A DNA stretch of 64,000 nucleotides, taken from NCBI GenBank assembly GCA_016125275.1, contig WGMB01000003.1, positions 1,054,001-1,118,000 of the forward strand, in the 5' to 3' direction. The notes beneath the pieces were generated by a model, which was given only the letters and a program-made list of their open reading frames with translations, did not search any database and had not been told where the DNA came from. Every line of letters starts with the position of its first letter. Positions within the stretch are counted from its first letter, which is position 1. Of the stretch, positions 34,019 to 42,553 are shown one piece after another. Origin of the DNA: Acidobacteriota bacterium. GTDB lineage: Bacteria > Acidobacteriota > Terriglobia > Bryobacterales > UBA6623. The translations under genes were made by a program, and so were the position numbers.

Positions 34019-34181
34019 AGTACTGTCGTCCCACCCGGTCATACAGCAATATACCCCGGGAAAAGCGGCGCTCCTTCTCATATTCCGGGCTCTCCCCCTC
34101 ATCGGATGATCAGGGTGTCAGAAGCGGTTGGAGAGACCGATTCGGCGCTCCGAAAGTACAGAGAGATCAGGGAGAGAAATC
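34019..34181 (+). promoter_or_regulatory. Duplicated upstream region of Flp pilin 1
   Basis: A 25-bp element beginning AGTACT and containing TCCCACC and TCATA starts here. A matching element (about 20 of 25 bases) starts at 34478. Both lie exactly 163 bp before their pilin ATG. The stretch just before the ATG (from about 34105) is also nearly the same in both copies and contains the small palindrome CCGA-T-TCGG. The leader ends in GGGAGAG, a ribosome-binding site. Confidence 0.6.
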
Positions 34182-34367
34182 ATGGAAAAGATCAACAAGT
34201 TGATTGTTCGTTTGCTGAACGACGAGAAGGGCCAGGACATGGTCGAGTACGCGTTGCTGGCCGGCTTCATCGCCGTCGCCGCCGGCGCCATTCTGCCGAC
34301 CGTGTCGAGCAACATCTCGGTCATCTTCTCGAAGATGAGCTCGGTCGTCGCCGACGCCGCCAGCTAG
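34182..34367 (+). CDS. Flp/Fap-type pilin, copy 1
   Basis: The 61-residue prepilin has the short leader of Flp pilins ending in Gly (NDEKG), followed by QDMVEYALLAGFIAVAAGAIL. The Glu-5 and Tyr-6 after the predicted cleavage site and the hydrophobic helix are the Flp signature. The prepilin peptidase would cut after that Gly and the Tad machinery would assemble the subunits into thin pili. No Tad/Cpa gene is in this window, so the machinery must be elsewhere. The copy at 34641 differs at only a few residues (for example Val to Ile and Ser-Ser to Ser-Asp). The ATG is preceded by GGGAGAG. Confidence 0.93.
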   Translation: MEKINKLIVRLLNDEKGQDMVEYALLAGFIAVAAGAILPTVSSNISVIFSKMSSVVADAAS

Positions 34368-34477: not shown

Positions 34478-34640
34478 AGTACTTTGGTCCCACCTGATCA
34501 TAGATGTTTGCACTGCAGCGATTCCAGGCCTCTCCCGCATATTCGGGGGATCTTTTGACACCGGATGATAGAGGTGTCAGAAGCGGTTGGAGAGAACCGA
34601 TTTCGGCGCTTCGCTAGTGAGAAACGAGGGAGGAAAAGTC
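34478..34640 (+). promoter_or_regulatory. Duplicated upstream region of Flp pilin 2
   Basis: This is the second copy of the region at 34019-34181, with the AGTACT/TCCCACC/TCATA element at 34478-34502 again 163 bp before the ATG. The leader has the matching CCGA-TT-TCGG palindrome and ends in GGGAGGA, a strong ribosome-binding site. The central part between element and leader has diverged. Confidence 0.6.
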
Positions 34641-34826
34641 ATGGAAAAGATCAACAAGCTGATCATCCGTTTGCTGAACGACGAGAAGGGCCAGGATATG
34701 GTCGAGTACGCGCTGCTGGCCGGTTTCGTGGCGGTCGCCGCGGGCGCGATCCTGCCGACCGTGTCGGACAACATCTCGGTCATCTTCTCGAAGATGAGCT
34801 CGGTCGTCGCTGACGCCGCCAGCTAG
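34641..34826 (+). CDS. Flp/Fap-type pilin, copy 2
   Basis: The 61-residue protein is a near-identical tandem copy of the pilin at 34182, with the same cleavage context (EKG before QDMVEYALLAGF) and the same C-terminus (FSKMSSVVADAAS). Duplication included the upstream region. The ribosome-binding site GGGAGG is stronger than in copy 1 and the gene is followed by a very stable terminator. The two copies may be expressed at different levels or times, or may be mixed in one filament; neither can be decided from sequence. Confidence 0.93.
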   Translation: MEKINKLIIRLLNDEKGQDMVEYALLAGFVAVAAGAILPTVSDNISVIFSKMSSVVADAAS

Positions 34827-34858: not shown

Positions 34859-34894
34859 GGAGGGCGGCCGCTGACGGCCGCCCTCCTTCTTTTG
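34859..34894 (+). terminator. Strong intrinsic terminator after pilin 2
   Basis: A perfect 12-bp stem (34859-34870 with 34875-34886), a CTGA loop and the T-rich tail TTCTTTTG end the pilin unit. Because the stem is symmetric it could also act on transcription arriving from the minus strand, but no T tract follows on that side. Confidence 0.85.
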
Positions 34895-34926: not shown

Positions 34927-36270
34927 TCAGCGTCGGATCCAGTCGCAGCCGCCTTCGGTTCCGCAGTAGTAGATCCGCAGCTCCGCCGGAGCCTTGCGGC
35001 GAGCCCAGTCGCCGCCGTTGACGAACAGCGCCGTCGCCCAGGCTTCGCTGTCGAGAGCCGACTCCGACAGCACCGACACGGCAAGAGTTCCCTGCGCCGG
35101 CTGTCCCGTGCGCGGGTCGAAGATGTGGCTGTAGACCTTGCCGTCCACCTCGAAGAACTTTTCGTAGGAGCCGGAGGTCGACATCGAAGCGTCCCGTAGG
35201 CGCACGGTCGTGGCCACCTCGTCGGCATCCTTCGGATTGCGGATCTCGACCGGCCAGCCCTCGGGTTCATCCGGCGGCGCACCGATGGCGTAGAGGCTGC
35301 TGGTGCCGGCGCTGATGAAGCCTGATCCGATGCCGTAGCCCTTGAGCAGCGCCGCGATGCGCTCTACGGCATACCCCTTACCAATTCCGCCAGGGTCGAG
35401 CTTCAGTCCATCGACGTCGAAGCGCACTTGGCGCGCCGCCGGGTCGACGTGCAGGTGTCGGTAGCCCGTCGATTCGAGCGCTCGCCGCAGCCTCAGGCCG
35501 CCGGGCAACGCCCCGGCCCCGCGGAAGAAGCCCCAGGCTTCGACCAAGCTGCCCACGGTTACGTCGAACGCCCCTTCGCTCTGCCGGCTGTAGCGCAGGC
35601 AATCCTCGAGCAGCGCCACGCTCTCCTCGGAGACCGTCACGGGGCCCGCTGCGGCTTCGGCATTGAGGCGGCTCCATTCGCTTTCCGGCCGGTAGTTGCT
35701 GATCAGACGATCGATGCGGCGCGCCTCCTCGAAGGCGGCCAGGGTCGCCGAAGCCAAGGCCCCGCGGCGCGGGCCGTAGAGCGCAATGCGGAGCTCGCTG
35801 CCCATGACTGAGGCGCTGGCCTCGTAGCGCTCCAAGGGCTCCTCGGCGGCCTTCGCCCGGGCGGCCGGGAAGGCGAGCGCGCAGGCTAGCAGGATTGCCG
35901 CCAACGGCTCCTTGCGGCGCTTCTCGATGCGCTTGAGCAGCGTCTCGATACGCTCGGCGTTCTGCGCGCCGCGGTCCACGCGAAACTCGAGCTGCGGCAC
36001 GCGCCGGATGTCCAAGCGGTCGGCCAGCAGGCTCCTCAAGTAGCCCGAGGCGCGCCGGAGCGGGGCGAGAAAGGCTTCCTCGTTCTCGATGGCTTCGTCC
36101 GGGCCTTCCGACGGGACCACGAGCGCCCGAGCATAGCTGTAGTCCGGCGCAAGCTCCACCTTCGTGATGTGGACCGAAGGCAGGTTCGGGTCATCGACCT
36201 CAGACTCGAGAATCTCGATCAGATCCTGGCGAATCTGCTCGGCGGCGCGCGCGCGGCGTAGTCCTTTCAT
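34927..36270 (-). CDS. rbfA-apbE: RbfA joined in frame to ApbE (FAD:protein FMN transferase)
   Basis: The open frame encodes 447 residues with two unrelated parts. Residues 1-120 are RbfA, the 30S maturation factor (RAAEQIRQDLIEILESEV, VHITKVELAPDYSYARALV, RVPQLEFRVD), in its normal operon place after ylxP. Residues 121-142 are hydrophobic like a signal peptide (EPLAAILLACALAFPAARAKA). Residues 143-447 are ApbE: FMN-transfer motif LDPGGIGKGYAVER, HIFDPRTGQP and a metal-binding segment SEAWATALFV that has Glu where Asp is usual. ApbE attaches FMN to periplasmic flavoproteins. RbfA is cytoplasmic and ApbE exported, so a TTG at 35904 with AAGGAG three bases upstream may start ApbE separately. 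No stop codon separates the two. Confidence 0.85.
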   Translation of the reverse strand: MKGLRRARAAEQIRQDLIEILESEVDDPNLPSVHITKVELAPDYSYARALVVPSEGPDEAIENEEAFLAPLRRASGYLRSLLADRLDIRRVPQLEFRVDRGAQNAERIETLLKRIEKRRKEPLAAILLACALAFPAARAKAAEEPLERYEASASVMGSELRIALYGPRRGALASATLAAFEEARRIDRLISNYRPESEWSRLNAEAAAGPVTVSEESVALLEDCLRYSRQSEGAFDVTVGSLVEAWGFFRGAGALPGGLRLRRALESTGYRHLHVDPAARQVRFDVDGLKLDPGGIGKGYAVERIAALLKGYGIGSGFISAGTSSLYAIGAPPDEPEGWPVEIRNPKDADEVATTVRLRDASMSTSGSYEKFFEVDGKVYSHIFDPRTGQPAQGTLAVSVLSESALDSEAWATALFVNGGDWARRKAPAELRIYYCGTEGGCDWIRR

Positions 36271-41210: not shown

Positions 41211-41684
41211 TCAGATCTCGACGACCAAGCGCGCCGTTTGCACGTCGCCGTGACGCACCTTCACCGGCTCGCCGCTCTTGCCTTCGAGGAGGATCCAGTC
41301 GCCGTCCACACCCGCCAAGCGTCCGCTCAAGCGCTGCTTGCCGTCCAGCGGCGCACGCAGCTTCAAGTTGGCCTTCTTACCCGCAAAACGCCGAAAGTCA
41401 TCCAATTTGAGCAGCTTGCGGTCGAGCCCCGGCGACGAGACCTCCAAGTGGTAGTTGGAGGCAGGCACCACATCCTCCATGTCGAGGATGACCGAGGCCT
41501 GCTTGGCCACCGTCTCGCAGTCAGCGTGGGTCACGCCGCCCGGCTTGTCTATGAAAATTCGCAGGACGCCCCGCGAGGCGTTGCCCTTCCACTCGACTTC
41601 GACGACTTCCAGACCTTCTGACGACGCGATGCGCTCCGCGATGACGCGCGCCTTGTCCGCGATCGACTTCCCCGTCCCGCTCAT
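41211..41684 (-). CDS. rimP: Ribosome maturation factor RimP
   Basis: The 157-residue protein has the RimP N-terminal domain (LEVVEVEWKGNASRGVLRIFIDKPGGVTHADCETVAKQASVILD) and NYHLEVSSPGLDRKLLKLDDFRRF, the motif that defines the family. RimP assists 30S assembly. As the first gene of the rimP-nusA-infB-ylxP-rbfA operon its 5' region carries a promoter and an intrinsic terminator. The ATG at 41684 has only a weak GGAACG upstream. Confidence 0.95.
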   Translation of the reverse strand: MSGTGKSIADKARVIAERIASSEGLEVVEVEWKGNASRGVLRIFIDKPGGVTHADCETVAKQASVILDMEDVVPASNYHLEVSSPGLDRKLLKLDDFRRFAGKKANLKLRAPLDGKQRLSGRLAGVDGDWILLEGKSGEPVKVRHGDVQTARLVVEI

Positions 41685-41708
41685 CGTTCCAGTTGTGTTC
41701 CGAGCAAC

Positions 41709-41732
41709 AAAAAGGTGGACCCGAGGTCCACC
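41709..41732 (-). terminator. Intrinsic terminator in the rimP operon leader (attenuator candidate)
   Basis: On the minus strand an 8-bp perfect stem (41725-41732 with 41714-41721) closes a 3-nt loop and is followed by TTTTTGTT. Its T tract ends 24 nt before the rimP ATG. It lies downstream of the predicted rimP promoter, so it sits inside the operon leader. It would also end transcripts from the DUF1080 gene at 41802. Confidence 0.8.
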
Positions 41733-41765
41733 GGGAGGTCGCCCGATTGAGCGTCTCCACTCGGA

Positions 41766-41794
41766 ATTCTACCGGTAAAACGAGCCGAAAGCAA
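41766..41794 (-). promoter_or_regulatory. Predicted promoter of the rimP-nusA-infB operon
   Basis: On the minus strand TTGCTT (41789-41794) and TAGAAT (41766-41771) are separated by exactly 17 bp. The start of transcription would be near 41759, giving a leader of about 75 nt before the rimP ATG. Confidence 0.65.
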
Positions 41795-41801
41795 ACGAAT
41801 C

Positions 41802-42467
41802 TTAACGGAGACGTTTCACCGCGATATTGCGAAACCTTTGGAAGCCGCCTTGTTTCCAGCGCTGTTCTCCGCCATGCACCTGGACCGCCAGATGCCCCTG
41901 CGTGGCGCCGCCCGCCGCGTGATTGGCCGTATCTTGGAAGTCGGTGATCCGGGTCCCGTTGAGCCAGACCTGGATGTGAGGAGTCGCACCTTCGATGCGA
42001 ACCCGAAAGACGTTCCATTCGCCCTTCTTCCAGACCTTCTCCCAGTCGGTCGACCAAGTGGTCTCCACGCCTTCGAGGCGCTCGCCGTAGACGCCGCCCA
42101 TGTTGCCGCCTTCCAGGTAATCGAGCATCACCTGATAGCCTTGGCCGGCCGCATTGGAGCGCAGGAAGAGCCCTCCGTCGCAGCCGAAGTCCGGATTGAC
42201 TTCCAGGTAGACCTCGACGTCGCCGTAGAGCTCATCGGTGAGCAGGATGCCGCCATTGCCGGCCGGCCGCTGGGTCCCGGTCAGCACGCCCTCGCGGATG
42301 CGCCACTCGGAGGTGTCGCCGTGGTGGCTGGTCAAGGAGATGTGCCAGCCGGCCAAATTCTGGTGGTTGAAGATCGGCTCGAATCCTTCGGGGACCTGAG
42401 CCGAGCCCGCTGCGGCCGCAACCAACAAGCAGAAACCGACGCGCAAGACTCCGGAGTTGGCCGACAT
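41802..42467 (-). CDS. DUF1080 (3-keto-disaccharide hydrolase-like) secreted protein
   Basis: The 221-residue protein has a signal peptide (residues 1-23, ending GSAQ) and the DUF1080 concanavalin-like fold: FEPIFNHQNLAGWHI, SEWRIREGVLTG, GDVEVYLEVNPDFGCDGGLFLRSN and HIQVWLNGTRITDF. Family members act on 3-keto-glycosides or bind sugars in the periplasm and are abundant in Planctomycetes and Acidobacteria. TATCAT (42475-42480) lies 7 nt before the ATG. The open frame upstream to 42527 has no signal-peptide logic and is not used. Its terminator is the one at 41709. Confidence 0.9.
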   Translation of the reverse strand: MSANSGVLRVGFCLLVAAAAGSAQVPEGFEPIFNHQNLAGWHISLTSHHGDTSEWRIREGVLTGTQRPAGNGGILLTDELYGDVEVYLEVNPDFGCDGGLFLRSNAAGQGYQVMLDYLEGGNMGGVYGERLEGVETTWSTDWEKVWKKGEWNVFRVRIEGATPHIQVWLNGTRITDFQDTANHAAGGATQGHLAVQVHGGEQRWKQGGFQRFRNIAVKRLR

Positions 42468-42553
42468 CCCGCATATGATAGCGACTCGTCGCCCACACAG
42501 ATCGCCCGCACAGATCGAAAGATCCAACCGGCGCGGCGTCTCCCGAGCGGTCC

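Follow-up and report, generated by a model that had tools for sequence, protein, structure and literature searches.

NusA is a general bacterial transcription factor whose level control has been worked out mainly in Bacillus subtilis and Escherichia coli. In B. subtilis, autoregulation of nusA reportedly requires no antiterminator. The B. subtilis protein is described as limiting its own synthesis by stimulating termination within its leader (PMC12288461, citing Mondal et al. 2016), and interrupted U-tracts are reported to be frequent in terminators that depend on NusA or NusG (Mandell et al., PMC8060035). A related system, the rimP-leader, is given as the most frequent attenuator in the survey of Naville and Gautheret (2010, PMC2965389). 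In that paper's account, its GGGc/gCCC stem is absent from all other terminators, its general form has no visible antiterminator, and the terminator lies 4–130 nt from the gene start; NusA is named as the best candidate regulator, and RimP is also raised as a hypothesis. According to the same account, several Gammaproteobacteria carry an additional terminator/antiterminator farther upstream; the Acidobacteria are mentioned there as a phylum in which hardly any predicted attenuator has an assigned function. Elsewhere, two terminators are reported upstream of rimP in E. coli (PMC6511841), and PMC5391140 counts the rimP leader as one of the attenuator-derived RNAs. The corresponding Rfam family, RF01770 (rimP; 102 positions), matches only E. 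coli among 14 control genomes.

The element described here lies on the minus strand of the window, the whole 64,000-nucleotide stretch of DNA that was analysed, ahead of the genes for RimP, NusA and IF-2, in that order. A weak −35-like TTGCTT (41794–41789; 3/6 consensus) is followed by a 17-nt spacer and a −10 box, TAGAAT (41771–41766; 5/6 match), with a predicted start near 41759. The first part of the leader is predicted to fold into a lineage-specific 5’ hairpin, GGAGACGCTCAATCGGGCGACCTCC (41758–41734), which occupies the leader from the start to the terminator; the 5’ hairpins vary in relatives of the same family, some of which have small, varied folds, such as the TTTCGG/CCGAAA type of several g5 genomes. 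The predicted terminator hairpin, GGTGGACC-TCG-GGTCCACC (41732–41714), has an 8 bp stem and a UCG loop, and the distally interrupted U-tract that follows, TTTTTGTT (41713–41706), would form the 3’ terminus of a ~51–54-nt attenuated transcript. The stem ends 29 nt from the rimP ATG at 41684, and the fifth T of the U-tract (41709) lies 24 nt from it. A sequence-only reading of this DNA had proposed the TTGCTT-17-TAGAAT promoter, the 8 bp stem with a 3-nt loop and the 24-nt gap to the ATG, and all of these are found in the letters, each in its proposed place.

The three genes that follow are transcribed in the same direction. The product of rimP (41684–41211), the ribosome maturation factor, matches the NCBIfam RimP models with a best E of 7e-32, under their curated cut-offs, and its RimP_N match exceeds the Pfam cut-off. 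The nusA gene (41191–39668; TIGR01953 above cut-off, with NusA_N and KH_5), which encodes the proposed sensor and is itself the main proposed target, is present as a single copy in the window's genome, and infB (39509–36573; TIGR00487 above cut-off) encodes IF-2. The operon also encodes RbfA. On the upstream side, a gene of the 3-keto-disaccharide hydrolase family (42527–41802, minus strand; Pfam) has the same orientation as rimP.

Two other features are observed downstream of infB. RbfA (residues 5–112) and an ApbE-type FMN transferase (residues 156–424) share one 447-residue frame (34927–36270, minus strand); a query with this protein finds an almost full-length match within one open frame in 12 of the 21 genomes searched, its own included, and RbfA and ApbE are separate adjacent frames in other genomes, for example G022 and G023. 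Two tandem, near-identical 79-residue pilin-like proteins are encoded on the plus strand (34128–34367 and 34587–34826), the second with a Flp/Fap pilin match at E 1.7e-6, under the Pfam cut-off, and they are followed by a strong 12 bp hairpin (34859–34886) that has a T-rich tail on either strand.

Comparison of this locus with the rimP-leader reveals several points of agreement. First, the hairpin and its U-rich stretch sit in the 5’ leader of rimP-nusA-infB. Second, the motif is operon-specific: the strict form defined from the relatives, GTGGGC-N3-6-GCCCAC-N-TTTT, occurs 54 times across 53 of 61 genomes, and 53 of the 54 occurrences coincide with rimP places, the lone exception being in G053. 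A covariance model, R1 (30 positions, built from 61 rows including the window's), has a single match in the window and in the whole genome from which it comes, the hairpin itself (31.8 bits); recovery of this copy is expected from a model trained on it, and it is the absence of other matches that shows specificity. Third, no antiterminator is found in 61 leaders, and the distance from stem to ATG in the window falls inside the 4–130 nt range. The difference is that the window carries GGAC/GUCC, one compensated pair away from GGGc/gCCC. Like the B. subtilis nusA leader, the locus places a terminator before the first gene of the operon and has an interrupted U-tract; of the two marks of a suboptimal terminator of the B. 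subtilis type, a distal U-tract interruption and a weak terminal pair, the interruption is present and the terminal pair of the stem is G-C. The leader reaches the end of the U-tract at ~54 nt, far shorter than the 180-nt leader given for B. subtilis rimP transcripts in PMC2965389. RF01770 belongs to the same gene, and the best R1 match in a 4-kb E. coli stretch is the hairpin just 5’ of rimP (15.6 bits, E 0.0094). RF01770 itself has no gathering-level match in the window or in any of 21 genomes; no Rfam family reaches its gathering level in the window, and none appears up to E 10 in a 301-base stretch or up to E 1 in the loci of 12 relatives. Judged by these comparisons, the window element belongs to the rimP-leader family; the idea of attenuation with NusA as the likely regulator was already published in 2010.

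The sequence pattern by itself is only mildly unusual, barely above chance. A loose terminator scan finds 9 sites in 12 kb, compared with 7.7 (sd 3.4) in shuffles, and a promoter scan at a 9/12 threshold finds none at the locus, where the two hexamers match 3/6 and 5/6. In a stricter scan, the window hairpin is the sole minus-strand site in 64 kb, with two more on the plus strand, and five Markov shuffles yield 2, 0, 1, 0 and 0 sites on both strands. For the leader as far as the U-tract, the predicted folding energy is −26.4 kcal/mol (z −3.28), better than that of 199 of 200 shuffles.

Conservation among relatives is far more informative. An initial contig scan with the RimP protein found no relative; the comparison set comprises 61 genomes, the window's own included, with rimP found in all of them, and in all 61 rimP is preceded by a GTGG-type hairpin that has a T run after it. 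The tail in most relatives is T6, then A or G, then T. The window's genome is one of the eight without the strict form, and the reversed strict pattern occurs once in the 61 genomes. The promoter is conserved as well: a −10 hexamer (at least 5/6) starts 21–42 nt before the hairpin core at 53 of 61 loci, compared with 0–2 of 61 in ten control ranges farther upstream, and the eight loci without one are L004, L005, L016, L028, L041, L042, L050 and L052. No −10 hexamer is present in the 22 nt 3’ of the stem at any of the 61 loci. The hairpin is thus not a product of chance, since it is conserved in all 61 genomes, with a −10 box in 53, and the earlier proposal that transcripts must pass the terminator is supported by a conserved promoter above the hairpin and none below the stem. 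If the usual spacing between −10 box and start is assumed, the 61 predicted leaders have 9–30 nt (median 19) ahead of the hairpin core and reach the end of the U-tract at +33 to +54 (median +44); the window falls in the longest class, with 28 nt before the core and a U-tract end at +53. Leaders this short leave no room for an aptamer.

The sequence-only reading had also suggested aligning the leader in relatives in search of covarying stems, and such an alignment (A1; 61 rows, 50 distinct) provides evidence for the terminator stem. Among the seven stem pairs assessed, two are invariant, two vary on one side, and three have both partners altered in one or more sequences; none of 500 shuffles matches either the three double-changed pairs or the observed covariation score, with the reservation that the relatives share descent and the double changes are therefore not counts of independent events. 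Predicted pair probabilities for the stem are high in the 61 leaders (median 0.9996; mean at least 0.83 per leader, two below 0.9). GGGC/GCCC is kept in 55 of the 61 rows, with departures in L001, L010, L022, L023, L039 and L046. In the window, GGAC/GUCC replaces it by one compensated pair change, so that the window has the only A-U at column pair 8–16 and one of two G-C pairs at the closing pair 3–21; this terminal stem pair is a weak A-U in most relatives. With its terminal G-C pair, the window copy may terminate strongly and have little need of NusA, and the departure from the near-invariant GGGC/GCCC raises the possibility that a protein reading the motif might not read this copy.

The same element extends well beyond these relatives. 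R1 matches at E ≤ 0.01 in 116 of 297 genomes of the phylum, with G000, G019 and G021 among its own rows, so either the form is not universal in the phylum or the model misses divergent copies; RimP_N itself is found in 246 of the 297. Positions relative to rimP were judged on 150 of these 246 genomes, a set that leaves 36 of the R1-matching genomes outside it, and among the matches listed R1 lies 23–301 nt upstream of RimP_N on the same strand in 71 of 80 genomes and elsewhere in nine. A scan of public genomes with the motif GTGGG-N5-9-CCCACTTTTTT returns at least 114 loci; among those listed, a RimP gene is present in the stretch at 52, with the motif 35–250 nt before it in 51. By record titles, the taxa with the motif before rimP include, among the matches listed, Acidobacteria, Alpha- and Deltaproteobacteria, Cyanobacteria, Nitrospirales, Bdellovibrionaceae, Marinimicrobia, Ignavibacteria and Acidimicrobiia. 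As far as sequence comparison can tell, the putative terminator hairpin before rimP-nusA-infB is a real and ancient feature, conserved across a wide range of bacteria. As a separate observation, 8 of the 62 rimP-less loci (L091, L106, L108, L122, L137, L139, L166 and L177) have T runs next to the motif on either strand; these are ordinary two-way terminators, a background class that any survey with such a motif has to remove.

The most probable function is attenuation: NusA-stimulated premature termination at a promoter-proximal intrinsic terminator probably limits expression of NusA's own operon. RNA polymerase would start near 41759 and reach the end of the U-tract at about +51 to +54. Plentiful NusA would favour pausing and hairpin formation, with release of a short RNA; with scarce NusA, read-through would allow rimP, nusA, infB and the downstream genes to be made. 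The terminator itself would be the sensor, with no ligand domain and no antiterminator required, and transcripts running in from the co-oriented gene upstream (41802–42527) would be stopped by the same hairpin. NusA attenuation had been suggested from the sequence, and by analogy this suggestion appears right in kind: it fits the rimP-leader, the B. subtilis mechanism and the occurrence of the hairpin before nusA in genomes where rimP is not detectable.

These last loci bear on which protein is sensed. It is unlikely, though plausible in that the operon encodes RimP, IF-2 and RbfA, that what the hairpin senses is RimP, IF-2 or the ribosome assembly state instead of NusA; the RimP hypothesis is also mentioned by Naville and Gautheret (PMC2965389). 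Among the at least 114 public loci, however, NusA is the next gene at 17 of the 62 listed without rimP, with the motif 49–131 nt before its start, so that nusA is seen directly as the first gene after the hairpin. The titles, where given, name Chloroflexi, Planctomycetes, Spartobacteria and a Pelagibacteraceae genome among the matches listed. RimP_N is found at E ≤ 0.001 in none of the 16 such genomes searched (L115 was left out), and the RimP C-terminal domain exceeds its cut-off in none of the 16, one of which gives two matches under the threshold in long frames. Because several of these assemblies are small, and perhaps incomplete, the absence of rimP is not proven for each. Occurrence of the motif before nusA in genomes without RimP_N suggests that the hairpin follows nusA, and it seems, on this distribution, to go with nusA rather than rimP; nusA is thereby named as the gene likely to be sensed. 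This argues against RimP sensing and leaves IF-2 sensing untouched; the report on B. subtilis points to NusA (PMC12288461). Common origin of the two groups of hairpins is only a candidate explanation, since the inner C-G pair is present in 0 of 18 hairpins directly before nusA compared with 34 of 51 before rimP among the matches listed, and convergence is possible. The interrupted tail is weak evidence in this respect because the nusA sites (10/18) fall between the rimP sites (37/51) and the other sites (21/55) among the matches listed. No description of leaders directly before nusA was found in the literature; the supplement of the 2010 paper may list some.

It is quite improbable that the hairpin and U-rich stretch act post-transcriptionally, by protecting the 5’ end or by aiding ribosome binding close to the start codon, with little termination. 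Such a role would suit the many relatives in which the U-tract ends only ~10–30 nt before the start codon and in which, by eye, no obvious strong Shine-Dalgarno sequence is present. The T run directly 3’ of the stem is nonetheless conserved as a terminator requires, with four invariant columns in A1, and the distance from stem to start is inconstant, ranging from 7 to 160 nt over the 61 genomes with the start positions as used.

The identity of the upstream gene addresses a further, very improbable reading, that the hairpin is merely the 3’ terminator of the gene at 41802–42527 and rimP uses another promoter. That gene is co-oriented and ends 69 nt before the hairpin, with no other terminator found between them. 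Upstream ORFs of the window and 19 relatives, 20 of the 61 loci, were compared by Pfam scan; they were picked by a rough codon score, a poor method that places the window's real upstream gene outside the three best ORFs and for that reason was used only for choosing ORFs. Ten ORFs with a Pfam family (L002, L004, L005, L009, L012, L027, L031, L032, L045 and L049) lie on the opposite strand, starting near the rimP promoter and running in the direction opposite to rimP, which means that the hairpin cannot be their terminator; six with a Pfam family are co-oriented (the window, L006, L020, L028, L034 and L044), and four have no Pfam match (L013, L023, L029 and L061). The upstream families differ widely, and the identity and orientation of the gene change while the hairpin stays. 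Termination of the upstream gene as the sole role was rejected on the divergent genes among these 20 ORFs; in addition, a −10 box lies above the hairpin at 53 of 61 loci and at none of the 61 within 22 nt below the stem.

A switching antiterminator acting with the terminator, in which an early-leader CCGAG was said to pair with CTCGG in the hairpin, has next to no chance of being correct and was rejected on position and on the survey of leaders: the two 5-mers are complementary, but CCGAG occupies 41764–41760, or −5 to −1 relative to the sequence-only reading's own start at 41759, and would thus be untranscribed if that start is right, while the window leader without it spends 90% in one structure and none of the 61 predicted leaders has 5’ complementarity to the hairpin beyond that in shuffles.

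With NusA-stimulated termination as the preferred reading, what is new here is how far the element is conserved, the geometry of its promoter and the loci directly before nusA. It is quite possible, and we propose it tentatively, that the rimP-leader is a phylum-crossing NusA sensor that belongs to nusA: it would stay at nusA when rimP is lost, lie close to the promoter and consist of the terminator alone as the whole sensor, and the window's compensatory change would separate stem structure from motif. If this is true, the U-tract end at +33 to +54 in the window's order means that NusA must act almost upon promoter escape. The compensated change in the window could help to tell whether NusA recognises the sequence of the stem or only its stability. 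A leader of ~54 nt, nearly fixed in form in the window's order and beyond, would offer a minimal object for such tests: one hairpin, one U-tract and one protein.
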